Virus record (IMG/VR): IMGVR_UViG_3300029911_000001
Coordinates: 167,109-231,108 of that record
Origin: a virus
Length of the DNA: 64,000 nt
Strand: one strand, 5' to 3'
Shown here: piece after piece, positions 18,188 through 28,713 of the stretch
Numbering within the stretch: the stretch's first letter is position 1
How the letters are laid out: each line of letters starts with the position of its first letter
The notes under the pieces: generated by a model
Told to the model about the DNA's origin: nothing
The model's database searches: none
What the model saw: only the letters and a program-made list of their open reading frames with translations
Program-made: the position numbers and the translations under genes

Positions 18188-18675
18188 CGATGGGGACGGG
18201 TAGACCTAAAAAAGAGAGCACAGAACTCACCTTCTCCTTAGAGAAGGAACAGGAGTTGATGCGTGCTCGGATGGCTGAAAAGTTTCCTTCTCCAAATACC
18301 GTCTCGTTGAGTGCTCAGTTGAACCATCTTGACGAGGTTCCTAGTAGAATCCCGACACCTGAGCCACTTAAAACTAAGGCGGTGCTCTACGCAAGAGTGT
18401 CTACTAAAACACAGAGTCTGGAGAACCAATTACTGGCTCTACGTAAATATGCTGCCCACAAAGGGTTATTGGTGGTAGGAGAATACTCAGACTCTATCCA
18501 CGGCTCTAATTCCATACGAGAGGGGCTAAACACCCTACTATTAGCTGGTAAATGTGGGGAGTTCGGTAAGGTTTTAGTTACAGCCTACGACCGAGTGGCA
18601 CGGGATACTAAACTGTTCCTTCACATCGTAGACATCCTCGGGGGGTGGGGAGTGAAACACCATGGAGTCAAATGA
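18184..18675 (+). CDS. Short serine recombinase (catalytic domain only)
   Basis: 163 residues. Residues 62-155 are a resolvase catalytic domain: AVLYARVSTKTQSLENQLLA (nucleophile Ser 73), then VTAYDRVARDT with the Arg residues. A 60-residue charged extension precedes it and no C-terminal DNA-binding domain follows. It is neither a normal resolvase nor a clear IS607-type protein. A+T-richer than its neighbours, so probably acquired. Confidence 0.78.
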   Translation: MTMGTGRPKKESTELTFSLEKEQELMRARMAEKFPSPNTVSLSAQLNHLDEVPSRIPTPEPLKTKAVLYARVSTKTQSLENQLLALRKYAAHKGLLVVGEYSDSIHGSNSIREGLNTLLLAGKCGEFGKVLVTAYDRVARDTKLFLHIVDILGGWGVKHHGVK

Positions 18676-19609
18676 AATGAATGTAACATATCAAAGGGTA
18701 GCAGACACCTTTTCAGGTGAAATCCACCGGCTCTTCTTATCTGAAGACAGTATGAAGGCGGAGTTCTCCAAACAGTTTTCTCATGTAGAGTTTGACAGAA
18801 CCATGCACGGTTCTACCCTTCTCTATAAACTCTTTCGTGACTGCTGGTATGCGACCGGCCCTGAGGTCAAGTGTGAGCCTACAGGCTACGACCGGTTGTT
18901 CGTCTGTCGCAAGCTCTACCATCTTCTCGATTACAATCTGTTCACTCAGGTTCTCCTCAACCTTCAGTCGTACGCTGGCATGTCTTACTACACTGAGGGT
19001 GCCATGAAGGAGATGGACGCTCTCAAGGAGTCGTGGCCGAAGGATGCGAAGCTGAACCCCTTCGAGCCCAAAGTCAAGATGGTGAAGAACGCTACGACCG
19101 ATGAGGAGAAGCGTTACAACAACCTGCTGAGCACGCTCAAGGGTCTGAAGATTATCTCGCAGTTCACTCCGCAGGTAAGCTTCCGCATCAGCCCCATGGG
19201 TTCGACGCCAGCGTTCGCCGACTCTCGCAACATCTCCATGATTGGAATCGGTGGCGACAAGTATCTCAAGACCTTGCCCAACCTCAGCCCCTTCTACATC
19301 CACTGGGCACCGGGCACGACGCCGGAGATGGCTAGGTTCAGCCTCACTGGGTTTACAGTGGAGGGTATCGCATACCCATTCATTTCGAAATCGGGGGGTG
19401 AGATTCTGCAAGAGGTTCTGTTCGCCCGGAAGATTATGGCGGAGGTCTTCGCTCATCATGACATCACTGCTGAAATGTGTGTGATGGTACCCCGCATGAA
19501 CTCCGTATTGATTGTTACGGACAAGGAAGGTATTCACTTGAAGGCTGCGTTCGACAAGCTGAAGGTACAGTACCCGATGCTTGAACTCGCAGAGGGAGGT
19601 CGTGTATGA
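18662..19609 (+). CDS. Unknown 315-residue protein
   Basis: Mixed alpha/beta protein with no motif I recognise. The first 14 nt overlap the serine recombinase gene. G+C-rich codon use like the core genes suggests a well-expressed phage protein. Confidence 0.7.
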   Translation: MESNEMNVTYQRVADTFSGEIHRLFLSEDSMKAEFSKQFSHVEFDRTMHGSTLLYKLFRDCWYATGPEVKCEPTGYDRLFVCRKLYHLLDYNLFTQVLLNLQSYAGMSYYTEGAMKEMDALKESWPKDAKLNPFEPKVKMVKNATTDEEKRYNNLLSTLKGLKIISQFTPQVSFRISPMGSTPAFADSRNISMIGIGGDKYLKTLPNLSPFYIHWAPGTTPEMARFSLTGFTVEGIAYPFISKSGGEILQEVLFARKIMAEVFAHHDITAEMCVMVPRMNSVLIVTDKEGIHLKAAFDKLKVQYPMLELAEGGRV

Positions 19610-19960: not shown

Positions 19961-20047
19961 GGGCAGATGCGTGAGTGGCTAAAACGGGCTGGCTGTAACC
20001 CAGCTTCCCTAGTGGATTCGGAGGTTCAAATCCTCCTCTGCCCACCA
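19961..20047 (+). tRNA. tRNA-Tyr(GTA)
   Basis: Class II tRNA. Acceptor GGGCAGA/TCTGCCC, anticodon stem GCTGG/CCAGC with loop CTGTAAC, long variable arm, T arm GGAGG TTCAAAT CCTCC, encoded CCA. Confidence 0.95.
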
Positions 20048-20058
20048 AAATTGAATAC

Positions 20059-20146
20059 GCAAGTAAGGCGACTATCGGTTGGTCGCACCGGGCTGTAAAC
20101 TCGTTGCCCTAAAAAGCCGCTGGGGGTTCGACTCCCTCTACTTGCA
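20059..20146 (+). tRNA. Second tRNA-Tyr(GTA), no encoded CCA
   Basis: Acceptor GCAAGTA/TACTTGC, anticodon loop CTGTAAA with a weaker stem (CCGGG/CTCGT), long variable arm, T loop TTCGACT. The 3' end reads ACTT rather than ACCA, so CCA would have to be added. Confidence 0.85.
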
Positions 20147-20155
20147 CTTTCGTGA

Positions 20156-20198
20156 CTACCGACCTCTTTAAGTAGAGGTATCTCTTGGAGGTCGGTAG
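20156..20198 (+). promoter_or_regulatory. Hairpin that hides the ribosome site of the GIY-YIG gene
   Basis: CTACCGACCTC (20156-20166) and GAGGTCGGTAG (20188-20198) are perfectly complementary over 11 bp. The 3' arm includes the GGAGG used by ATG 20203. An inner CCTCT/AGAGG stem adds stability. Translation would need the hairpin to be absent or melted. Confidence 0.7.
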
Positions 20199-20202
20199 GT
20201 TC

Positions 20203-20817
20203 ATGACATTTTTCACAGTGTATCGAACACAGAATCTGGTGAACGGGAGGTACTACTTCGGCGTCCATAAGACCAAAGACCCCTACGATGGGTACCTTGG
20301 GTCGGGTAAGATTTTGAAACGCGCAATAATAAAGTACGGTGAGCCAGCGTTCATCAAGAATCTCTGCTTCATCTTTGACAATCCAGAGGAGGCTTTCGCT
20401 AAGGAGTTTGAACTAATTGAAACGTACCGGCAAGATTCGCTTTGCTACAACCTGAGACAAGGTGGAAGTGGGGGGTTTGATTGGATAAACCGGGAAGGCA
20501 AAGCAGATTATTCAAGGGCAGCGAAAATGTCTCACGGAAGTAAAAGTAAAAGAGACCCCAACCACTATATGAAGATGGTTGAAGGTAGAAGGAAAAAGGG
20601 GTACGGAGTTGCCCCCCAGTTCATAGGCATCTGGTCAGGACGTAAGCATACATCTGAAACCAAAGCCAAGATGGCGTTGGCAGCAAGCTTGAGAGTTGGT
20701 GAAAAGAACTCGCAACATGGGACTTGTTGGGTAACAGACGGTGTTACAAATATGAAGGTGAAGCAATCAGACCTGTCCACGTACCTTGTGGGTAGTTGGA
20801 AACGAGGAAGAGTATAA
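20203..20817 (+). CDS. GIY-YIG-like homing endonuclease
   Basis: 204 residues from ATG 20203. FFTVYRTQNLVNGRYYFGVH is a diverged GIY-YIG motif. YLGSGKILKRAIIKYGEPAF and a Glu in FAKEFELIETY follow, then a NUMOD3-like GRKHTSETKAKM. It sits directly after two tRNA-Tyr genes. Confidence 0.82.
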   Translation: MTFFTVYRTQNLVNGRYYFGVHKTKDPYDGYLGSGKILKRAIIKYGEPAFIKNLCFIFDNPEEAFAKEFELIETYRQDSLCYNLRQGGSGGFDWINREGKADYSRAAKMSHGSKSKRDPNHYMKMVEGRRKKGYGVAPQFIGIWSGRKHTSETKAKMALAASLRVGEKNSQHGTCWVTDGVTNMKVKQSDLSTYLVGSWKRGRV

Positions 20818-21035
20818 TGCAAGTCGTTCAAACGCTGTTGGTACAAGGGAACGCGCAACAGGTAGCTTGGCTCAACGTAGACCCGCGAGTGAAGAAGGGC
20901 TCCGTTGTTACGCTCAAGGACGAACCTGAGAGCGGTCAGTGGGAAGTAGCCGAGCAGTACATGAAGCAGGAAGCTTCGGACATCCAGCGTGGATGGGGCA
21001 ACGACCTTCCCAAGTCGCAGCGGACTGAGCGGTAA
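20817..21035 (+). CDS. Small unknown protein
   Basis: 72 residues; the ATG overlaps the TAA of the GIY-YIG gene. Starts MQVVQTLLVQGNAQQVAWL and includes WEVAEQYMKQEASDIQRGW. It looks like a host gene fragment or small phage protein between tRNAs. Confidence 0.6.
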   Translation: MQVVQTLLVQGNAQQVAWLNVDPRVKKGSVVTLKDEPESGQWEVAEQYMKQEASDIQRGWGNDLPKSQRTER

Positions 21036-21071
21036 TTAGCTTTTCCTGCTGTACGGTTTTTAGCTTTTTAC

Positions 21072-21156
21072 GCCCGGATGGCGAAATTGGTAGACGCGGC
21101 AGACTTAGAATCTGTTGTCGCAAGACGTGGGGGTTCGAGTCCCCCTCCGGGCACCA
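21072..21156 (+). tRNA. tRNA-Leu(TAG)
   Basis: Acceptor GCCCGGA/TCCGGGC, anticodon loop CTTAGAA, class II variable arm, T loop TTCGAGT, encoded CCA. Confidence 0.96.
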
Positions 21157-21279
21157 AGTTTGAACTTACTATCGTGAGACGATTGCACGCAGAACCCCGT
21201 GTGATTGAGTGAAAGCTGTGGCAGGCGAATTGACGCTAAGGCGATAAGTAACTCAGTCGTTCAAAGTTTTACAAAGTAT
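21157..21279 (+). ncRNA. Structured spacer RNA between two tRNA-Leu genes
   Basis: Ends can pair: TTTGAAC (about 21159-21165) with GTTCAAA (about 21259-21265), and next to these TTACTATCG with CGATAAGTAA (one bulge). An inner 8-bp hairpin ATTGCACG/CGTGTGAT is also present. No tRNA arms and no ORF. It may be a processing structure or a small RNA. Confidence 0.35.
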
Positions 21280-21369
21280 GCGCGAGTGGTGGAATTGGAA
21301 GACACAGCAGACTCAGAATCTGCCGTCCCGAAAGGGCAACTACGAGTTCGACTCTCGTTTCGCGCACCA
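21280..21369 (+). tRNA. tRNA-Leu(CAG)
   Basis: Acceptor GCGCGAG/TTCGCGC, anticodon stem GCAGA/TCTGC with loop CTCAGAA, variable stem GTCCC/GGGC, T loop TTCGACT, encoded CCA. Confidence 0.95.
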
Positions 21370-21382
21370 AAAGTTTAGCAAG

Positions 21383-21464
21383 GCCGATGTGGTGGAATGG
21401 CATACACAGGACACTCAAAGCGTCCCGCGAAAGCATACGAGTTCGACTCTCGTCATCGGCACCA
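21383..21464 (+). tRNA. tRNA-Leu(CAA), weak anticodon stem
   Basis: Acceptor GCCGATG/CATCGGC, Leu-type D arm, loop CTCAAAG (anticodon CAA), T arm ACGAG TTCGACT CTCGT, CCA encoded. The base pair next to the loop is A-C, so the gene may be decaying. A second, better Leu(CAA) is at 22817. Confidence 0.8.
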
Positions 21465-21705
21465 AAGTTTAGTATTGCTCCTATGCTGGAACTGGCATAC
21501 AGCTCTATTGTACATTGCGGGGCGGTGTGATTCGACCCCCATACGTGAGCCTTTTATCTCTCACGTCACATTTTCCCGAGAACGCAGTATGGCTTGGTAA
21601 GCTAGTTCCTAGTTGGCTCAAACAACCGGTACTAGCAAGAGACCTGTTCACATTGAAATAAATTGGCATCCGCATACACTGGCATTCGTGTTTTTGAACT
21701 TTCAT

Positions 21706-21720
21706 ACCCTAATTGAGGGT
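21706..21720 (+). promoter_or_regulatory. Small hairpin around the ribosome site of the HNH gene
   Basis: ACCCT AATTG AGGGT. The 3' arm contains the GAGGG used by ATG 21724, so the site is masked in the RNA. Confidence 0.45.
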
Positions 21721-21723
21721 GTG

Positions 21724-22266
21724 ATGAGACAATATCGAAACAAGTACAGTAAGGAAAGTCTGGAGCCCATCGTTAGGGACAGCCTATCGGTAGCTGGGGT
21801 GATTGATAAACTCGGATTGAAACAGGCTGGGGGTAATCATAGGCACTTAAAGTTACTTTTCAAAAGGTTCGAAATTGATACTTCCCACTTTACAGGAAGT
21901 ATATGGAACCGGGGGCTCACCGCAGAGACAGACAAACGAGTAAACCGAGGGATTAGACAAAAGTACACAGACGATGAGGCTTTCTGTGAAAATTCACTTC
22001 TTGGGAGTTCTCAACTTAAGCGGAGATTACTTAGGATTGGATGGAAGTATTGTTGTTCTCGTTGTGGGATTTCAGACTGGTTAAGTGAAAAGATTGCACT
22101 ACATCTTGACCATATAAATGGTATCAATGATGACAATCGGCTTTGTAACCTTAGATTTCTTTGCCCAAATTGCCATCAACTAACAGGGACATGGGGTTCG
22201 AGAAACGCGGTCGTGGTGAAACGGCATACACACTACCTTGAGGTGGTAGCGGGGGCAACCCCATGA
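21724..22266 (+). CDS. HNH homing endonuclease ending inside tRNA-Leu(GAG)
   Basis: 180 residues from ATG 21724. HTH-like start (SLSVAGVIDKLGLKQAGGNH), then an HNH core: CSRCGISDWLSEKIALHLDH, INGINDDNRLCNLRFLCPNC. The last about 20 codons are encoded by the 5' part of the tRNA gene at 22207-22292, so the reading frame runs into the tRNA. Confidence 0.88.
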   Translation: MRQYRNKYSKESLEPIVRDSLSVAGVIDKLGLKQAGGNHRHLKLLFKRFEIDTSHFTGSIWNRGLTAETDKRVNRGIRQKYTDDEAFCENSLLGSSQLKRRLLRIGWKYCCSRCGISDWLSEKIALHLDHINGINDDNRLCNLRFLCPNCHQLTGTWGSRNAVVVKRHTHYLEVVAGATP

Positions 22267-22292
22267 GAGTTCAACTCTCTCCGACCGCACCA
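22207..22292 (+). tRNA. tRNA-Leu(GAG)
   Basis: Acceptor GCGGTCG/CGACCGC, anticodon stem CTACC/GGTAG with loop TTGAGGT, variable arm GGGGGCAACCCC, T loop TTCAACT, encoded CCA. Its first 60 nt overlap the HNH coding sequence. Confidence 0.94.
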
Positions 22293-22311
22293 AAGTTAAG
22301 TATTATACAGG

Positions 22312-22638
22312 ATGAAGCTCCATTGGAGTCAAGTCCTAGTTCGAAATAGATGCAAGGCACGTGAACCAGCGGCTCGACTTCGAACAGCTATGTTGGAAGC
22401 GGGGATACCACACAAGTGTGAACGCTGTGGGTGTCCTCCTGAATGGCGAGGCAAGCTGCTCGTACTTCAGATTGACCACATAGACGGCGACACTCTCAAT
22501 AACGAGCCTGACAATGTTCGCTTCATCTGTCCGAACTGTCACTCGCAGACACTAAACTTCGGAGCCAAGAACCGCAACCGGCTCACTGAAGCAGGGTTCG
22601 ATGATTTGTATGCTTGGGGAGGTGAGGACTATGAGTAA
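22312..22638 (+). CDS. Small HNH endonuclease
   Basis: 108 residues. CERCGCPPEW, LQIDHIDGDTLNNEPDNVRF, ICPNCHSQT is a complete HNH core with two CxxC zinc ligands. A TATTATAC box lies just before the ATG. Confidence 0.9.
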   Translation: MKLHWSQVLVRNRCKAREPAARLRTAMLEAGIPHKCERCGCPPEWRGKLLVLQIDHIDGDTLNNEPDNVRFICPNCHSQTLNFGAKNRNRLTEAGFDDLYAWGGEDYE

Positions 22639-22801
22639 AAGCATCGTGTGCATTCTCGGCATTAGCACCTATGGTGGATTCGAAGCAAAGGACGCTACGC
22701 TGGATAAGCAAGCGGCTCATGAATGGCTGCAAACGGAAACAGCACCGGACACCATGGCTGTCTTCAAGCGGGTTGATTGGAATCTGGTACGGTCAAGCTA
22801 G
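22631..22801 (+). CDS. Small unknown protein
   Basis: 56 residues from ATG 22631, with GGTGAGG upstream and an 8-nt overlap with the HNH gene. MSKSIVCILGISTYGGFEA at the start; no family recognised. Confidence 0.55.
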   Translation: MSKSIVCILGISTYGGFEAKDATLDKQAAHEWLQTETAPDTMAVFKRVDWNLVRSS

Positions 22802-22816
22802 GGCAGACAAAGTAAT

Positions 22817-22903
22817 GCCGGGATGGTGGAATTGGCAGACACATCGGCCTCAAAAGCCGCCGTTCGCAAGGACATGAGGGTTCGACCCCCTCTCCCGGCA
22901 CCA
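22817..22903 (+). tRNA. tRNA-Leu(CAA)
   Basis: Acceptor GCCGGGA/TCCCGGC, loop CTCAAAA, class II variable arm, T loop TTCGACC, encoded CCA. Confidence 0.93.
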
Positions 22904-22926
22904 AACAAATATTTGCAATAAATCTG

Positions 22927-22954
22927 TCCGAAACCGTGTTCACTCCGGTATACT
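22927..22954 (+). promoter_or_regulatory. Promoter
   Basis: -10 TATACT (22949-22954) with a weak -35 TCCGAA (22927-22932) and a 16-nt spacer. It precedes the gene at 22973. Confidence 0.6.
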
Positions 22955-22972
22955 GTGGCTGGAGGCTTTTGG

Positions 22973-23164
22973 ATGCCAGCGACAGACCCCACCAAACACA
23001 TCAACGTTACGTTGCCCCATGAGGGCATCGAGTTCCTGACACGGGTACAAGTTTACCTGCGGGACAGGTATGGTCGTGCGGCCAGTAAAGCAGCACGAGC
23101 CAACGTCTCCATCGCTTTGAACTCCATCCGCAAGGAACTTGAAACAAAGGAGCCACAGGCATGA
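22973..23164 (+). CDS. Small unknown protein, possibly DNA-binding
   Basis: 63 residues from ATG 22973 (GGAGG upstream). One beta-strand (KHINVTLP) followed by two helices resembles a ribbon-helix-helix layout, but this is only a shape argument. Confidence 0.55.
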   Translation: MPATDPTKHINVTLPHEGIEFLTRVQVYLRDRYGRAASKAARANVSIALNSIRKELETKEPQA

Positions 23165-23268
23165 GAGTATCCGTCTATCCCATTCTAATCGAAGAAGGCA
23201 AGCCACCCGCGTTCAAAGAAATCAAGCTGCCCAAAGGGTCTCGCATCCTCGGTGGGGTTCAAGCGTAA
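23161..23268 (+). pseudogene. Truncated small phage protein
   Basis: 35 residues, MRVSVYPILIEEGKPPAFKE then IKLPKGSRILGGVQA and a stop. The LPKGSRIL piece resembles the start of a small phage domain that normally continues well past this point. The frame ends exactly where an HNH fragment begins in another frame. Confidence 0.5.
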
Positions 23269-23431
23269 GGAAGGTCTCGGCTACTACTGGTCTCGGAACC
23301 GTTGGTGGCGGTTCGGTGTTGACGACTACCCCCCAGCCTACCGGGTGTTGTGCTCGAACTGCAACATGAGCGCGTATCGAGGCAATGGTGTGTGTATTCA
23401 CCAGCGAGGCAAGAATGAACCTACCAACTGA
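23258..23431 (+). pseudogene. C-terminal fragment of an HNH endonuclease
   Basis: In frame 2 the sequence reads YYWSRNRWWRFGVDDYP and VLCSNCNMSAYRGNGVCIH, the typical zinc-binding tail of phage HNH nucleases. The first half is missing and no start codon is present. It appears joined to the truncated gene at 23161 by a recombination junction near 23258. Confidence 0.6.
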
Positions 23432-23912
23432 AATTCGTAGCTTCTCTGATGACTGGAGCTTCCTGTCTAACTTCTACCCGTGCAAGGTGGTGTTGGATGG
23501 TGTGGAGTATAGTTCGGTGGAGCACGCATATCAGGCGGCGAAGACGCTGAACCTCAAGGAGCGGGAGAAGTTCCTGTACGCTGGCGTCACAGCCGGTCGT
23601 GCGAAGCGGATGGGCGATGCCATCAACAAGTCTGGCAAGCGTCGTGCGGACTGGCTGGAGGTCAACAAGCCTATCATGCTCGACCTGCTCAAGCAGAAAT
23701 TCTATCCGTCGATTTTACGTCGGAAGCTGCTCTGTACGTTCTCTGCGATTCTGATTGAGGGGAACTACTGGCACGACACGTGGTGGGGCGTGTGTGAAGG
23801 CACGTGCAAGGAGCACGGTCCCCATGAACCATATGGGGATAATATCCTAGGTCTGCAACTGATGGAGGTTAGGGCCTACTATGGAACAGGTGAAGGGTGT
23901 CTCAACCGTTAG
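23415..23912 (+). CDS. NADAR-domain protein (YbiA/RibX-like)
   Basis: 165 residues from ATG 23415. FLSNFYPCKVVLDGVEYSSV, then EHAYQAAKTL, then RAKRMGDAI, and W..V...I.LDLLKQKFYP fit the NADAR/DUF1768 family. Family members cleave N-glycosidic bonds of riboflavin intermediates, and some remove ADP-ribose from modified DNA or protein. A counter-defence role is an inference. Confidence 0.85.
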   Translation: MNLPTEIRSFSDDWSFLSNFYPCKVVLDGVEYSSVEHAYQAAKTLNLKEREKFLYAGVTAGRAKRMGDAINKSGKRRADWLEVNKPIMLDLLKQKFYPSILRRKLLCTFSAILIEGNYWHDTWWGVCEGTCKEHGPHEPYGDNILGLQLMEVRAYYGTGEGCLNR

Positions 23913-24127
23913 GCTGCTACGCTCCTCCGCGACCTGCGAGGCACAGCGACTGGAGTTCCAGTTCCAAGGGCATTGATTGCGGCTTCCAGTCGGTCTATCT
24001 CAACCGCCAGTTCGTTTCGCAGCGTCTTGATGCCTCTGTCTTTCATGCCGGATAAAGCCTCGTGAGAAACGCGGAGGCGAACGATTTCAGCCGTAAGGTT
24101 GTCACGCAGGGTATTGATGTCCATCAC
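23909..24127 (-). CDS. Small paralogous protein A (minus strand)
   Basis: 72 residues. MMDINTLRDNLTAEIVRLRV aligns with the start of the protein at 24243-24536 (MNIESLRAEIATDIARLQAA), so they are paralogues. Helical head, then a basic RRSRRSVAA tail. It has its own promoter at 24147-24174 and AAAAGGAG upstream. Confidence 0.68.
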   Translation of the reverse strand: MMDINTLRDNLTAEIVRLRVSHEALSGMKDRGIKTLRNELAVEIDRLEAAINALGTGTPVAVPRRSRRSVAA

Positions 24128-24146
24128 TACTCCTTTTACAATATCC

Positions 24147-24174
24147 AGTATACCTAACCATAGGTCAATGTAAA
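24147..24174 (-). promoter_or_regulatory. Minus-strand promoter for small protein A
   Basis: On the minus strand: -35 TTTACA (24174-24169), 16-nt spacer, -10 TATACT (24152-24147). Confidence 0.8.
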
Positions 24175-24183
24175 GTAAAATTT

Positions 24184-24227
24184 ACCCCCATGAGAAAACG
24201 GGATGGAGCCGGATTCTCATGGGGGTT
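24184..24227 (-). terminator. Terminator hairpin after the minus-strand gene at 24243
   Basis: CCCCCATGAGAA (24185-24196) is perfectly complementary to TTCTCATGGGGG (24214-24225), 12 bp. Reading on the minus strand it is followed by TAAATTTTAC. Confidence 0.78.
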
Positions 24228-24242
24228 GGATCGTTCGTTGGT

Positions 24243-24536
24243 CTACGCCGCTTTAGACTGGGCTGCATTAACTTCCACAGTGGCGACAGCGGCCTTCTGC
24301 TTAGCCCAACGGGCCTTCTGCGAAGCAGAGATGCGTGCCCGAAGCTCGGGAGTCATCTCCCGACGGACACGGTGGATACCCTTCTTCTCACCCTTAGCAA
24401 TCATCGTCCGGGTCGTCTTGCGGTGCTTCACAGGGGCATGGTTGGGGACTTCGCTGGAGTTGGCGAGGGCATCGTAAGCAGCCTGAAGCCTTGCGATGTC
24501 GGTTGCGATTTCTGCACGTAACGATTCGATATTCAT
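24243..24536 (-). CDS. Small paralogous protein B (minus strand)
   Basis: 97 residues from ATG at 24536 (AGGAG 7 nt upstream). Helical head shared with protein A, then a basic region (KHRKTTRTMIAKGEKKG) and MTPELRARISASQKARWAKQ, which looks DNA- or RNA-binding. Confidence 0.68.
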   Translation of the reverse strand: MNIESLRAEIATDIARLQAAYDALANSSEVPNHAPVKHRKTTRTMIAKGEKKGIHRVRREMTPELRARISASQKARWAKQKAAVATVEVNAAQSKAA

Positions 24537-24688
24537 TGAGGTTTCTCCTGTTTTTCTATACGTTCTCCCTTTTGCGTATGGGTCTGTAACCGAGGGCTGT
24601 GGTGTGTTCAACCACACTCCCAGTGACTGTGTAGATACTTGGTGTACCACTAAGGTTGCCCCCTCCCGTTGTTTTTTGAAAAATAGTG

Positions 24689-24716
24689 TTGCATTTTTCG
24701 GACTATCGGGTATTAT
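24689..24716 (+). promoter_or_regulatory. Promoter of the Pro tRNA segment
   Basis: -35 TTGCAT (24689-24694), 16-nt spacer, -10 TATTAT (24711-24716). An ATG follows 6 nt after the -10 box (24723). Confidence 0.8.
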
Positions 24717-24722
24717 GTAGAT

Positions 24723-24788
24723 ATGAAGTTCACGAGTCCAAACCCGTCGTTCCCACCGTGCCCTACCCTGCACGGGCCTGACCTCTAG
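24723..24788 (+). CDS. Possible leaderless 21-residue peptide
   Basis: MKFTSPNPSFPPCPTLHGPD and Leu, Pro-rich. The ATG falls at about the expected +1 of the promoter at 24689, so translation would be leaderless. The peptide has five Pro codons upstream of two Pro tRNA genes, but there is no other support. Confidence 0.3.
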   Translation: MKFTSPNPSFPPCPTLHGPDL

Positions 24789-24927
24789 CGAGTTCAGCGT
24801 CCCGTGCGGCCTCGCCGGGATGTGAATGTGATTTTGATTTGGAGTCTAGCAAGTTCCCCGATAACACGCCCGAACCGTTCTCGCGAAAAGCGTACGGTTC
24901 GGCTCTCCTTCAAAAGACCATCCCGGT
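24770..24927 (+). ncRNA. Highly structured RNA upstream of tRNA-Pro(CGG)
   Basis: Two closed domains. GCACGGG (24770-24776) pairs with CCCGTGC (24801-24807). CCGGGATG (24815-24822) pairs with CATCCCGG (24919-24926) and encloses a 9-bp hairpin CCGAACCGT/ACGGTTCGG. The outer 8-bp stem looks like a tRNA acceptor, but D, anticodon and T arms are not recognisable and there is no CCA. Confidence 0.4.
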
Positions 24928-24941
24928 CACTATTGCTTTCT

Positions 24942-25018
24942 CGGAGAGTGGCCAAGATGGAAAGGCTCTGGTTTCGGGAACCAGAAATTCGTGAGTTCGA
25001 ACCTCACCTCTCCGACCA
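24942..25018 (+). tRNA. tRNA-Pro(CGG)
   Basis: Acceptor CGGAGAG/CTCTCCG (C1 typical of Pro), anticodon stem CTGGT/ACCAG with loop TTCGGGA, T loop TTCGAAC, encoded CCA. Confidence 0.95.
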
Positions 25019-25030
25019 AACTTTTACCCT

Positions 25031-25654
25031 TCAAAGGAGGATCACTCCTTTATCCAACTCATCATGGTGGTTCTTACACAAGGCGATGAGGTTGCAAGGG
25101 TCATTGATTTCACCGACCAACGCAGTTGAAGGGAAAGCTCTGATGGGTTTGATGTGGCAACAGTCCACATGGAAGGTATACCCACATACTTGACACATAC
25201 GGGCTCTAACCTTGAAGAGAACCCCTCTAGCGTGTTCTCGGATTCGTTCTAATGGGCACGCCTTCTTGGTTCTTAGCGGGAGCAATGACATTGGGATGTA
25301 ATTACACTCGGGGCATCGAGTGGTAGAACGGTGTCTGTTTACCTTGAAGAAGAGGGTTCCACAAGAAGTACAGTTACGGGGTTTTGGTTTGTTTCGCGGG
25401 AATGTCGTTCGTGCCATATTGTACTTGGCACCACACGATTGGTTGCAGAACTTTTTTCTCTTGACTTGTTGAAACTTTGAGCGAGTCATCTCTTCAAGAG
25501 GTATCAAGATAGCAGTATCACACTGTAGGCAACGGGTTGGATTTTCATTGTACCCTTCCATTCGTTGCTGGGCTCTTTGTCGGTTCAACACGTTTGCATT
25601 TTTACCGGCAGCTTTGATTTGAGCCAATCTGGTTGAGCTTAGTTTGTTTTTCAT
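25031..25654 (-). CDS. HNH endonuclease with zinc ribbons (minus strand)
   Basis: 207 residues. Three CxxC-containing segments (CLQCDTA; CNQSCGAKYN; CTSCGTLF with CPECN) lead to the HNH core CQVCGYTFHVDCCHIKPIRA and NLIALCKNHHDELD. It lies head-on between tRNA-Pro(CGG) and tRNA-Pro(TGG). Confidence 0.85.
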   Translation of the reverse strand: MKNKLSSTRLAQIKAAGKNANVLNRQRAQQRMEGYNENPTRCLQCDTAILIPLEEMTRSKFQQVKRKKFCNQSCGAKYNMARTTFPRNKPKPRNCTSCGTLFFKVNRHRSTTRCPECNYIPMSLLPLRTKKACPLERIREHARGVLFKVRARMCQVCGYTFHVDCCHIKPIRAFPSTALVGEINDPCNLIALCKNHHDELDKGVILL

Positions 25655-25693
25655 TTTTCAACTCCCTGTTTACTGATTAGGTAGTTGAAAAAT
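25653..25693 (-). promoter_or_regulatory. Inverted repeat over the HNH start, abutting tRNA-Pro(TGG)
   Basis: ATTTTTCAACT (25653-25663) and AGTTGAAAAAT (25683-25693) form an 11-bp perfect stem. On the minus strand the stem overlaps the ATG and part of the ribosome site. Its outer edge is the base before tRNA-Pro(TGG). Confidence 0.6.
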
Positions 25694-25767
25694 CGGGGTG
25701 TAGCTGGAAGGTCAAGCCCGTGTTTTGGGAACACGAGACGAGGTTTCGATTACCTCCACCCCGACCA
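25694..25767 (+). tRNA. tRNA-Pro(TGG)
   Basis: Acceptor CGGGGTG/CACCCCG, anticodon stem CGTGT/ACACG with loop TTTGGGA, encoded CCA. Confidence 0.94.
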
Positions 25768-25789
25768 ATTTTGAACTATATCACCGGAA

Positions 25790-25824
25790 GCAGCGGAGAG
25801 ATTCGAATCCTATCACCCCGACCA
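25790..25824 (+). pseudogene. 3' remnant of a tRNA-Pro-like gene
   Basis: ATTCGAAT, then CACCCCGACCA, copies the T loop and acceptor 3' strand of the preceding tRNA-Pro, but no matching 5' half is present upstream and the T stem is degraded. Confidence 0.6.
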
Positions 25825-26125
25825 AGTTTGAAGTATGCCAGCGACGACCGCTGAGCCTTTATAGCCCCTATCCGAGGGGTGTTGGGCTCATGTCACGCCG
25901 ATACCGTGCTCATCATGAGAGGGATACTCTATGAGTGTTGCGACGAACGGTGCCGACGACGCAAGTCCGGGGCAACTTCGGCCCCGCTAAGGGGCCGGAC
26001 AAGTTTTGAACTTTGGTAGTATTATATTTAGTGGAGCCGGACTGCGGTAGTCCCACAGGACTGTACGACGTGAAGCCCTCCACACATCACACGGTCGTCG
26101 TCCGGGGTGTTAGGGGAGAAGTATC
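25825..26125 (+). other. Structured leader region with a short ORF and a promoter
   Basis: No ordinary gene. Hairpins: CAGCG/CGCTG near 25843, GAGCC/GGCTC enclosing CCCC/GGGG near 25857-25893. A 19-codon ORF (25931-25990, MSVATNGADDASPGQLRPR) ends in the loop of a GGCCCC/GGGGCC hairpin (25980-25996). This competes with CCGGGGC pairing to GCCCC just before. A promoter follows at 25998-26025, then a hairpin-containing leader to the gene at 26126. Confidence 0.4.
25998..26025 (+). promoter_or_regulatory. Promoter for the gene at 26126
   Basis: -10 TATTAT (26020-26025), weak -35 GACAAG (25998-26003), 16-nt spacer. The leader is about 95 nt. Confidence 0.55.
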
Positions 26126-26593
26126 ATGAATTTTAAGGTGACTCATTGGCATCTCGCTAAGGGACGCGGCGATGGCGATAACACCGAAGTCGTAGTCCGT
26201 CTGGAAGAGTCATCGTGGTTCTGGCACTTCGCTGAGTTCATCGGTGAGCACGTATTCTTCACCATCTGCGATTGGTGCCACAAGGTTCCCCTCCCTAAGT
26301 TCGTATGCAACTGGGAACGCAACTGGGGCGGTGACAAGGAAGACGGCGTACATAAGCTGGAAGACTGGTATGGTGCCGACCTTGGTTGTCTCTGGCACGT
26401 CTACGTAGAGTCCCCCGTCCTTCAGTGGGTGTGGAAGCATAAGTTCATTGAACAGGCCACAGAGTTCCGTATGACCCTTGCCGAGGCCCGTGAAAAGTTC
26501 AAAGGCACACAGGCTTACAAGCTGGAGTGGATTGAAGAAGATGTCAAGCGTGACGCTGCATACGCTGCGGAACACCCCGAAGATAACGATTAG
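26126..26593 (+). CDS. Unknown Trp-rich protein
   Basis: 155 residues with about 14 Trp, for example SSWFWHFAEF, NWERNWGGD, LQWVWKHKF, plus CDWCHKV. AGGGGAG precedes the ATG. It has a dedicated promoter between tRNA clusters. No family recognised. Confidence 0.7.
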   Translation: MNFKVTHWHLAKGRGDGDNTEVVVRLEESSWFWHFAEFIGEHVFFTICDWCHKVPLPKFVCNWERNWGGDKEDGVHKLEDWYGADLGCLWHVYVESPVLQWVWKHKFIEQATEFRMTLAEAREKFKGTQAYKLEWIEEDVKRDAAYAAEHPEDND

Positions 26594-26617
26594 TCAGAAA
26601 TAATGCAAAAATAAGTG

Positions 26618-26645
26618 TTGCAAAGTTTTCTGACTTTGGTATTAT
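26618..26645 (+). promoter_or_regulatory. Promoter of tRNA-Met
   Basis: -35 TTGCAA (26618-26623), 16-nt spacer, -10 TATTAT (26640-26645). The expected start site coincides with the 5' end of the tRNA (26650), so little or no 5' processing is needed. Confidence 0.85.
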
Positions 26646-26649
26646 TAGT

Positions 26650-26730
<81 letters not shown>

Positions 26731-26750
26731 AGAAGTAAAGTAAGGGTACA

Positions 26751-26849
26751 ATGGCAACTCAGGTTCTTCGCTTCAAGTGCGGCTTCTGCGATAAGGAAAT
26801 GCGTTCCCAAGGGCAACGCACCAAGCACGCAAAGGTCTGCACCAAATGA
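26751..26849 (+). CDS. 32-residue zinc-finger peptide
   Basis: MATQVLRFKCGFCDKEMRSQ then GQRTKHAKVCTK. C-x2-C plus H-x3-C can bind one zinc. GTAAGG lies upstream. Its stop codon overlaps the tRNA-like element at 26848. Confidence 0.55.
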   Translation: MATQVLRFKCGFCDKEMRSQGQRTKHAKVCTK

Positions 26850-26909
26850 CCGTGGTAAATTGAAACTACTCTTCCGGGAGTAGGGTGGCTCAAATCCGCC
26901 CCATGGTCT
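26848..26909 (+). ncRNA. tRNA-like element lacking a D arm
   Basis: GACCGTG (26848-26854) pairs with CATGGTC (26902-26908). A CTACT/AGTAG hairpin with loop CTTCCGGG and a T arm GGTGG CTCAAAT CCGCC follow, but only 11 nt replace the D arm. No CCA. If functional the anticodon could be TCC (Gly); a decayed tRNA is as likely. Confidence 0.4.
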
Positions 26910-26932
26910 ATAACGCTGCACTAACAGAAGGA

Positions 26933-27057
26933 CGACCCGATAGACTCACTGTTTTATAAGGAGTGTTCATGGGAAACATCGCTATGTCCTCACTCTTGCC
27001 CACTCGGGCAACCTGAGTGAGTCCCTGAGTGAGTCCCTGAGTGAGTCTAAAGGGTCG
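26933..27057. repeat. Inverted repeat enclosing three 12-bp tandem repeats
   Basis: 26933-26950 and 27040-27057 are complementary at 16 of 18 positions. Inside the 3' side, ctgagtgagtcc is repeated at 27013, 27025 and 27037 (last copy one base different). A 15-codon ORF with GGAG upstream (26969-27016) lies in the loop. Confidence 0.6.
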
Positions 27058-27086
27058 CCGGTCTACCCGAATAATGACGGCTAAAA

Positions 27087-27248
27087 ATGAAACCACAAGT
27101 AAAGCTTACACGTCGTGAACGCCGGAAGTTGAACAAGCCGAAGAACAATGGCTGCAAGTATGTTTGCTTGACTTGCAACACACCATTCACCTTGAGCACT
27201 GCAATGGATGAGAAGCACTACTGCTCATCTAAGTGCCAACCGAAGTAA
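27087..27248 (+). CDS. Small zinc-binding protein
   Basis: 53 residues. Basic head (KLTRRERRKLNKPK), then CLTCNTPFTLS and YCSSKCQ, a C-x2-C plus C-x3-C zinc ribbon. Starts ATG 27087. Confidence 0.55.
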   Translation: MKPQVKLTRRERRKLNKPKNNGCKYVCLTCNTPFTLSTAMDEKHYCSSKCQPK

Positions 27249-27369
27249 GTTCCCGTTGAATCGGGCTTGGTACTGAAAACCAGCGAAGCAGGGTTGGTCT
27301 CTATGGGTGCAGTCTAGCGCATAGAGTTGGGAGAGGTCGTCGCGACGGCCAATCCCACCCCAGAGTTTT
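27249..27369 (+). ncRNA. Structured RNA with a three-way-junction-like fold
   Basis: GGGTTGG (27291-27297) pairs with CCAATCC (27349-27355). Inside, CTCTATG pairs with CATAGAG (27299-27326), and GGTCGTCG with CGACGGCC (27335-27350, last two bases shared with the outer stem). It looks tRNA-sized but lacks anticodon and T-loop motifs. Confidence 0.35.
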
Positions 27370-27427
27370 GGCGGGATAGAGGAGTTGGTTCCTTGACGGG
27401 CTCATAACCCGTAGACGGTCGGTTCGG
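27370..27427 (+). pseudogene. 5' part of a tRNA-Met(CAT)-like gene
   Basis: GGCGGGA acceptor strand, D arm with TTGG, anticodon stem ACGGG/CCCGT around CTCATAA, and the 5' T strand GTCGG TTCG are normal. The matching 3' T strand and acceptor never appear; a run of hairpins follows. Confidence 0.55.
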
Positions 27428-27459
27428 AGGACATTCGGGAGGCTACTAGTGGCTCCCAC

Positions 27460-27504
27460 CCGGAGGTCTTGTTGGCGAGAAGCCTCCCCCTCCGGTTTAT
27501 TTTG
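27460..27504 (+). terminator. Possible terminator hairpin
   Basis: CCGGAGG (27460-27466) pairs with CCTCCGG (27489-27495) with an inner TCTTG/CGAGA stem, followed by TTTATTTTG. Confidence 0.6.
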
Positions 27505-27842
27505 AGTGGTGCCGTTGGTCGCCTAGCGTCCGACATCCATGGGACAACATGGTATCGAGTCGCCGATGCGATTCGAGGCAACCTGTAGATGACGAAGAAG
27601 GTTATCCTGTGGTGTAGCCGGTAGGCGTTACAGGCAAGTCCCTTCGTCGGTATCATCCGGCACAATTTTTGTTGGGGTCTCACTACGAAGAGCGGCGGCG
27701 TAAGAGGGTGTGAGGCGAGAACCGAAGCATCGACCGTGCAGCGTACCGGATGAAACAGCCGGACTATAGTGGTGGCTTACAACAGTAATGTTGTCGGTGC
27801 GAGTGCTCATCCAAAGCCATGGAACCCCAAACAAAATAATTA
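27505..27842 (+). other. Gene-free region rich in hairpins
   Basis: No supported ORF or complete tRNA. Long-range pairs: GACGAAG 27591 with CTTCGTC 27642, and TTGGGGT 27672 with ACCCCAA 27824. Short hairpins: CGAGTCGC/GCGATTCG near 27556, ACAACA GTAA TGTTGT at 27779-27794. It may hold decayed tRNAs or unknown small RNAs. I considered a group I intron but could not find its core helices. Confidence 0.4.
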
Positions 27843-27870
27843 TTGCAACTGTCTCAGAGTCGTGTATACT
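27843..27870 (+). promoter_or_regulatory. Strong promoter
   Basis: -35 TTGCAA (27843-27848), 16-nt spacer, -10 TATACT (27865-27870). It drives the structured leader and gene at 28057. Confidence 0.85.
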
Positions 27871-28056
27871 ACGTGTACGTTCTTGGATGTAAACCAAGGG
27901 AGTGGGCTCAGTTTCTTGCATCTGTAAATGCAAGTGGAGGTCGGGGCGGGTTGCCCGGTCAAGTTTCCAGCTTTAGAAGAAAGCTGGTGGTGGAGGGTGT
28001 CACGGGAAACCGTGACGCCCCCGTAGTTCAAATCTATCTTAGGAGAACAACGTCCA
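27871..28056 (+). promoter_or_regulatory. Structured 5' leader with three consecutive hairpins
   Basis: GGGC GGGTT GCCC (27944-27956), CCAGCTTT AGAAG AAAGCTGG (27967-27987), and an 11-bp stem with a GAAA tetraloop (27995-28020). A T-loop-like TTCAAAT follows, then AGGAG and ATG 28057. It could be a regulatory element for the downstream gene. Confidence 0.5.
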
Positions 28057-28254
28057 ATGGCAACAATCCTCGAATTCAACGGCTGTCCCAAATGGCGTGT
28101 AGTGAAAGAAGGGGAAGCAACCTTCCTGCACTGCCCGACGACCCAGACTCGCATCCCTGTCACTCTTGGCGAACTCCCCGAAGGTGCAAGCTTCGAGGAA
28201 GGTGATGAAAACCTCCCGACCGGTACCGAACTCGAAATCGCAGTCACGGTCTAA
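28057..28254 (+). CDS. Small unknown protein under a structured leader
   Basis: 65 residues, MATILEFNGCPKWRVVKEGE then LHCPTTQTRIPVTLGELPEG. Beta-rich and acidic. Strong promoter and AGGAG suggest high expression. Not recognised. Confidence 0.68.
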   Translation: MATILEFNGCPKWRVVKEGEATFLHCPTTQTRIPVTLGELPEGASFEEGDENLPTGTELEIAVTV

Positions 28255-28261
28255 CCGAGAA

Positions 28262-28391
28262 ACGCTTGTAGCTCAGAATTACTCTGCGAGGCGGACGAGG
28301 AAGGTACCGACGACTTCGGCTAGACAGAGGAAGCCTAGAGCACCGGGGTTCTAATCCCGGAGGTCGCAGGAGAGGCCCTGCCAAGCGTACC
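28262..28391 (+). tRNA. tRNA-Arg(TCT)-like gene with a 63-nt D-loop insertion
   Basis: Acceptor ACGCTTG (28262-28268) with CAAGCGT (28382-28388). D stem GCTC/GAGC is separated by 63 nt instead of about 8. Anticodon stem CCGGG/CCCGG encloses eight bases GTTCTAAT. Variable loop AGGTC; T stem GCAGG/CCTGC with loop AGAGGC instead of TTCGAAT. After the discriminator only CC is encoded. The anticodon reads TCT (Arg), or CTA if the loop is read one base later. Confidence 0.5.
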
Positions 28392-28397
28392 TTTTAT

Positions 28398-28509
28398 GAG
28401 GGAATGGATAGACTCTGACTTCTCATCTGACATAAGACCAGTCAGGCAGCGTAACTCAGATGAGGCATCGGCCAGAGGAACGTCCGTGAAATCCCGCACT
28501 CCCTCTCCA
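28398..28509 (+). ncRNA. tRNA-like hairpin domain ending in CCA
   Basis: GAGGGAATG (28398-28406) pairs with CACTCCCTC (28497-28505, one mismatch), and TCCA follows. Inside, CTCATCTGA pairs with TCAGATGAG over 9 bp, and CTGAC/GTCAG competes with it. No T loop or clear anticodon. Confidence 0.35.
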
Positions 28510-28563
28510 ATTTGTTTGCAACTTTTTCCAACTATCTGCGTCTAAGTAAGAGAACACATCCCC

Positions 28564-28614
28564 ATGAACCCCATCTACCCAACTCCCGGCGCACGATTTA
28601 CTGAGACCCTCTAA
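28564..28614 (+). CDS. Possible 16-codon leader peptide
   Basis: MNPIYPTPGARFTETL. Its TAA lies in the loop of the ACCCTC/GAGGGT hairpin (28606-28622) just before tRNA-Phe. The same stop-in-hairpin layout occurs at 25931-25996. Confidence 0.25.
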   Translation: MNPIYPTPGARFTETL

Positions 28615-28637
28615 GCGAGGGTGTTTCGTATTTCTGC

Positions 28638-28713
28638 GGCCTTGTAGCTCAGATGGTAGAGCACTACGCTGAAGACGTAGGTGCCGCGGTCTCGAAAGCC
28701 GCCAAGGCCACCA
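28638..28713 (+). tRNA. tRNA-Phe(GAA)
   Basis: Acceptor GGCCTTG/CAAGGCC, D stem GCTC/GAGC, anticodon stem CTACG/CGTAG with loop CTGAAGA, T loop CTCGAAA, encoded CCA. The 3' two thirds overlap, antisense, the end of the endonuclease gene at 28664. Confidence 0.94.

Follow-up and report, generated by a model that had tools for sequence, protein, structure and literature searches.

The window analysed here is the 64-kb terminal part of a virus record of 231,108 bp (genome G000), whose source is described as a soil jumbo phage. It carries a transfer RNA (tRNA) array at 19,961-28,713, whose genes are ordered by amino acid according to ARAGORN (Tyr, Leu, Pro, Met, Phe) and which is broken up by several endonuclease-like open reading frames (ORFs). 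Within this array, upstream of tRNA-Phe, lies the subject of this study, an element at 28262-28391 (plus strand) with four paired tRNA stems and a diverged homolog in a second phage (G012). As judged from sequence comparison, the element is a tRNA-derived RNA that is under selection without decoding, and not a product of ordinary decay. Directly upstream lies a 65-amino-acid ORF (28057-28254, plus strand) whose stop codon is separated from the element by 7 nt; the two are probably co-transcribed. By DNA polymerase, the nearest named phage is Tunturi_5 (46.7% amino-acid identity), a 309-kb jumbo phage that infects the acidobacterium Tunturiibacter (PMC11924767); Acidobacteriota are the hosts of the only cultured relative of this jumbo-phage group.

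Anatomy of the element

All 21 base pairs of the four stems (7+4+5+5) are Watson-Crick pairs and follow tRNA spacing. The 5' side of the acceptor stem, ACGCTTG (28262-28268), forms seven pairs with CAAGCGT (28382-28388), and both T8 (U8) and A14 are present. The D stem GCTC/GAGC (28271-28274/28338-28341), identical in the homolog, encloses a loop of 63 nt. The anticodon arm CCGGG-GTTCTAAT-CCCGG (28343-28360; stem 28343-28347/28356-28360) has an 8-nt loop and is followed by the variable loop AGGTC and the T arm GCAGG-AGAGGC-CCTGC (28366-28381; stem 28366-28370/28377-28381). The T loop, AGAGGC, departs from the tRNA consensus TTCRANY in both copies. The acceptor 3' side continues into an ACC end (28382-28391), with AGCGTACC identical in both copies; a CCA-adding enzyme (PolyA_pol) was not found in G000. 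The initial annotation had pointed out the four paired stems, the 63-nt D loop, the eight-base anticodon loop, and the altered T loop, all of which are read directly from the sequence.

The enlarged D arm folds differently from what was first proposed. The two hairpins originally placed there (CCGA/TCGG and GGCT/AGCC) are broken in the homolog, and the comparison supports instead a second D-arm helix, CTCTG/CAGAG (28282-28286/28325-28329), and a CGGA/TTCG pairing (28292-28295/28315-28318). The latter belongs to the hairpin CGGACGAGGnnGGTACCnACGACTyCGG (28292-28319), which is part of the consensus fold and agrees with the homolog at 24 of 28 bases. The segment AAGCC (28331-28335), in the 3' part of the D arm, does not differ between the two copies. 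Its GCC could form a kissing interaction with the GGC of the T loop and so take the place of the standard D-loop/T-loop contact; the putative kissing bases are conserved in both copies.

Neither ARAGORN nor Rfam, searched to E=5 and including the tRNA model RF00005, reports the element as a tRNA, and its best Rfam match is a chance-level hit to HgcE (E=4.4). The homolog matches neither ARAGORN nor the Rfam tRNA model, nor any other Rfam model. When the tRNA arrays of this phage and of four relatives were scanned with a descriptor that tolerates loose loop lengths, the element reached a stem score of 58. This equals the highest score of any real tRNA in the window; unannotated matches on either strand of the arrays scored at most 48.5. 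With tRNA consensus bonuses added and ten phages scanned, the element scored 72, and shuffled sequence never exceeded 60.5.

A diverged homolog and selection on structure

The initial annotation had suggested looking for the same element in related phages, and pattern searches across 2.9 million viral contigs did recover it. The phage itself is represented by two further records that carry identical copies (L003/L005; also L073/L075), and a single diverged copy lies in G012 (contig 3300041809_000801, 88.9 kb) at L076 c794-928, where c, placed before or after coordinates, denotes the complement. G012 is a true relative, with a tRNA array and a permuted transfer-messenger RNA (tmRNA) of its own and structural genes whose aligned proteins are mostly 55-74% identical to those of the window's phage. 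Exact-pattern matches at L074, L077, L078, and L079 have no tRNA-like context and were rejected as chance, as were BLAST matches in G036, G046, and G047. Named phages gave no match at E<0.1, and the exact pattern has no match in bacterial and archaeal genomes.

The G012 copy occupies a different genomic place, between the permuted tmRNA and an array of CTA-tRNA, Ile, Thr, and Gln genes. Both copies start right behind an ORF stop codon, at a distance of 7 nt in the window and 1-2 nt in G012, a position that could reflect a cis-acting 3'-end element, that is, a tRNA-shaped processing or stabilising signal that terminates small phage mRNAs, is cut by RNase P, and has no function once free. The two upstream ORFs differ, which means that the RNA is not tied to any one gene; given its unrelated surroundings, it is a unit of its own rather than a by-product of its neighbour. 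Moreover, a plain processing signal needs no conserved D-arm domain and T loop, and many canonical tRNAs of the arrays could already serve this purpose. We therefore regard a 3'-end signal as unlikely, although it is the strongest of the competing explanations.

The two copies are approximately 74% identical, with GCTCAGAATTAC, AATTAC, AAGCC, the complete T arm (AGAGGC loop included), and AGCGTACC unchanged between them. The differences preserve pairing: at seven base pairs both partners have changed and remain complementary, namely one in the acceptor stem (T-A to G-C in the homolog), three in the anticodon stem (the homolog arm reads CCCAT-TGGTA-ATGGG), and three of the five in D-arm helix 2 (GCCTC/GAGGT in the homolog). 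The register of this last helix was set by hand; the L076 copy has the same register in its minimum-energy fold. Only one pair, the outermost acceptor pair of the homolog, is broken. When an equal number of differences was placed at random in the four tRNA helices, as many double changes arose in 80 of 200,000 trials (P=4e-4); with D-arm helix 2 included, the count fell to 2 of 200,000 (P=1e-5).

These compensatory changes bear out the earlier suggestion that selection acts on an unusual RNA. A tRNA pseudogene, in which the loops of a canonical tRNA were replaced in the course of decay, would be expected to accumulate changes equally on stems and loops and without compensation, which is not what seven compensated pairs against one broken pair indicate. 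All 21 stem pairs of the window copy are intact, the homolog shares the altered T loop and the D arm, and the D-arm hairpin is almost unchanged. Truncated and rearranged tRNA pieces do occur in the arrays, and both the lack of an encoded CCA and the absence of the element from most relatives searched would suit a pseudogene. Because of the homolog, this explanation is nonetheless largely refuted, and we consider it improbable.

Several observations weigh against a conserved tRNA-derived RNA. The comparison has no more than two independent sequences, whose alignment was in part made by hand. Most relatives searched are without the element: a covariance model built from the two copies (R1) found no additional full member in 35 records, and BLAST, run on 35 records that overlap in part with these, also found none; the family is therefore narrow within the space searched. 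The encoded end is ACC, the final A of CCA being absent in both copies, and folding energy, taken by itself, does not stand out (z -2.1 and -0.7). Finally, we found no target or linked defence gene.

The R1 model also bears on ancestry. It scores its own two building members at 160.3 and 161.9 bits and, in addition, matches canonical tRNAs of the group (the best being the Tunturi_5 tRNA-Arg, 42.8 bits) and several anticodon-less tRNA-like genes, which supports a tRNA origin. Among 416 tRNAs, the best match to the element is an odd gene at L020 5370, followed by Arg(CCG), so that no clear parent isotype emerges. Considered as a possible ortholog, the L020 gene shares the anticodon stem and a downstream GATAGAC motif with the element but is devoid of the D-arm domain. 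This motif (GATAGAC-hairpin-GGAAC..GTGAAATCC) is a structured RNA that recurs in the tRNA arrays of several group phages (window 28396-28505; L020 5445-5520; L048 8380-8445; L061 c10365 and c7735); its window copy has no Rfam match.

Loss of decoding

The initial annotation read the element as a tRNA-Arg(TCT), or, with a shift of one base, as an amber (CTA) tRNA, and noted that its eight-base loop could cause frameshift suppression. None of these proposals holds in the homolog. Its anticodon loop has 5 nt (TGGTA), or 3 nt (GGT) if the stem is extended to six pairs; thus, no anticodon is kept, no triplet is shared at the decoding position, the CTA reading is lost, and the eight-base loop length is not conserved. 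In G000, TAG ends 43 of the 178 long ORFs, with only a short open stretch beyond it, and this ordinary stop usage rules out amber recoding, which had been put forward for checking. Suppression and frameshifting are not supported, because the loop is unshared and TAG is an ordinary stop. A decoding tRNA of any of these kinds could still draw on the TCT and CTA triplets readable in the window copy and on the true CTA tRNAs of this phage and its relatives, but the T loop is not of the TTC type either, and we assign this explanation the lowest probability of all. The CTA tRNAs themselves number one to three per phage in several phages, though TAG is a normal stop in G000; they lie at L011 c7323 in this phage and elsewhere at L045 c10853 and c10980, L049 c7748-8066, L053 2203 and 2414, and L066 c4604. 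In two phages, a CTA tRNA has an apparent second, duplicated anticodon arm (L053 2309-2408; L105 ~18645-18737).

Another alternative is a tRNA whose D loop harbours an intron that is spliced out, and here the relatives offer some precedent: several of their tRNA genes have anticodon-loop inserts (for example, at L056 9190-9296), and Tunturi_5 encodes RtcB. However, the putative insert shows stronger conservation than the anticodon loop, and both the T loop and the anticodon loop remain non-canonical after its removal. RtcB is also absent from the other nine records, G000 included. A D-loop intron is therefore very unlikely, hardly ahead of a decoding tRNA. The anticodon-loop inserts measure approximately 34-53 nt and occur, besides L056, at L064 11450-11561, L050 3705-3834, and L046 3934-4055; one Met tRNA reads CTCA-insert-TAA.

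The element might also carry an amino acid outside translation, charged by a synthetase, kept off the ribosome by its altered D and T loops, and serving as donor to a transferase. Its acceptor and T stems are kept, and its D loop is altered as in the non-proteinogenic tRNA-Gly of S. aureus, in which GG18-19 is replaced (PMC4052509). In that tRNA, as in the element, loop changes remove the molecule from translation and the stems stay; unlike the element, it has a normal anticodon arm and no D-arm domain (PMC4052509). Against such a carrier, the CCA end lacks an encoded final A, and no transferase is linked. Many synthetases read the anticodon, which the element does not keep. We judge a carrier about as improbable as a pseudogene.

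A putative tRNA mimic among other tRNA-derived RNAs

With its acceptor, D, anticodon, and T stems kept, the element should be foldable and recognisable as a tRNA. The kept stems suggest recognition by processing enzymes, and the lost decoding together with the added arm suggests a mimic; a decoy or inhibitor is therefore favoured. Specifically, the element would be transcribed behind the small ORF and excised by host tRNA-processing enzymes. The free RNA might then occupy or mislead a host enzyme that acts on tRNA, for example, a tRNA nuclease triggered by infection, with the conserved D-arm extension conferring affinity or specificity. Phage tRNAs have been found to counter tRNA-depleting defences (PMC10264068, PMC11555353). 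That the element is a conserved non-decoding tRNA mimic appears very probable to us; the decoy function taken by itself is a tentative proposal drawn from analogy. For the full account, in which a tRNA-derived non-decoding RNA is processed and acts as a mimic on a host tRNA enzyme, we see roughly even chances.

The element shares with canonical tRNAs (RF00005), phage tRNAs among them, the four stems and their spacing, U8, A14, the AGGTC variable loop, and the location in a tRNA array. It differs from them in having no conserved anticodon, an AGAGGC T loop, an extended and conserved D arm, and an incomplete CCA, and it is missed by RF00005. Phage tRNAs able to escape anticodon nucleases (van den Berg 2023, PMC10264068; Azam 2024, PMC11555353) are similarly phage-encoded, have an altered anticodon loop, and are proposed to act in conflict with tRNA-targeting defence. 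Those tRNAs have kept their decoding ability and are set apart by point changes, whereas the element has lost decoding and gained a new domain. YrlA, a bacterial Y RNA with a tRNA-like domain, is, as cited in PMC7790460, a non-decoding tRNA mimic like the element; the element has no Rfam match, in a library that was not checked for a YrlA model. A gene for the Rsr/Ro (TROVE) protein was not found in G000 or G012, whose records are possibly partial, and is present in the relative G003.

Further tRNA-shaped genes without an anticodon occur near CTA tRNAs in G001, G002, and G003. Their anticodon arm is capped by a GCAA or GAAA tetraloop or a similarly tight loop, and most have no GG in the D loop. 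Genes with intact stems and an anticodon arm ending in a tight loop (GCAA, GAAA, CTC, or GTAG) lie at L045 c11228-11303, L049 c8198-8273 and c8594-8668, L053 2027-2100, and L064 9552-9631. The arrays also contain mini tRNA-like hairpin RNAs of 35-57 nt with a CCA end (L018 1311-1367; L020 5299-5355; L045 c11143 and c10978; L049 c8592 and c8144; L053 2102; L011 c5528), and the L018/L020 pair shows compensatory changes in its acceptor-like helix. Jumbo phages of this group may conceivably carry several kinds of non-decoding tRNA mimic (GNRA-capped anticodon arms, mini tRNAs with a CCA end, and the D-arm-extended form) against host tRNA-targeting immunity, with the element founding an RNA family that has its own D-arm/T-loop contact, an extension that we put forward as speculative.

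The arrays hold other unusual RNAs. In the window, a tRNA-Met-like gene at 27366-27470 combines a normal anticodon loop (CTCATAA) with a lengthened, non-canonical T arm. At 26952-26955, approximately 69 bases of the otherwise identical L003/L005 copies are absent, at a GTGAGTCCCTGA tandem repeat. Upstream of the 65-amino-acid ORF and the element, a match to the wcaG RNA (27907-28002) scores 42.2 bits, against an Rfam cut-off of 42, and is conserved in part at L020 7507-7526. Elsewhere in the group, Glu(TTC)-like tRNAs of two phages (L046 7505-7577; L050 7457-7530) have the T loop ATCGTCG and a compensatory T-stem change. At L026 8560-8660, a T arm and 3' acceptor half directly precede a 5' acceptor half and D arm, an order resembling that of a circularly permuted tRNA gene. 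The permuted two-piece tmRNA (RF04321) scores above its cut-off in 7 of 11 group phages, the window's genome included (G000 71465-71732c; Tunturi_5 157899-158195c; also G001, G002, G003, G005, and G012).

What large phage tRNA sets are for is under debate, and they are usually counted by programs that seek decodable tRNAs. A tRNA-shaped RNA that is conserved yet unable to decode indicates that part of such an array serves a role other than translation, and warns that jumbo phages contain tRNA-derived RNAs, a whole layer of them, that ARAGORN and Rfam overlook. The element thus offers a concrete molecule with which to test whether phage tRNAs fight tRNA-destroying immunity.
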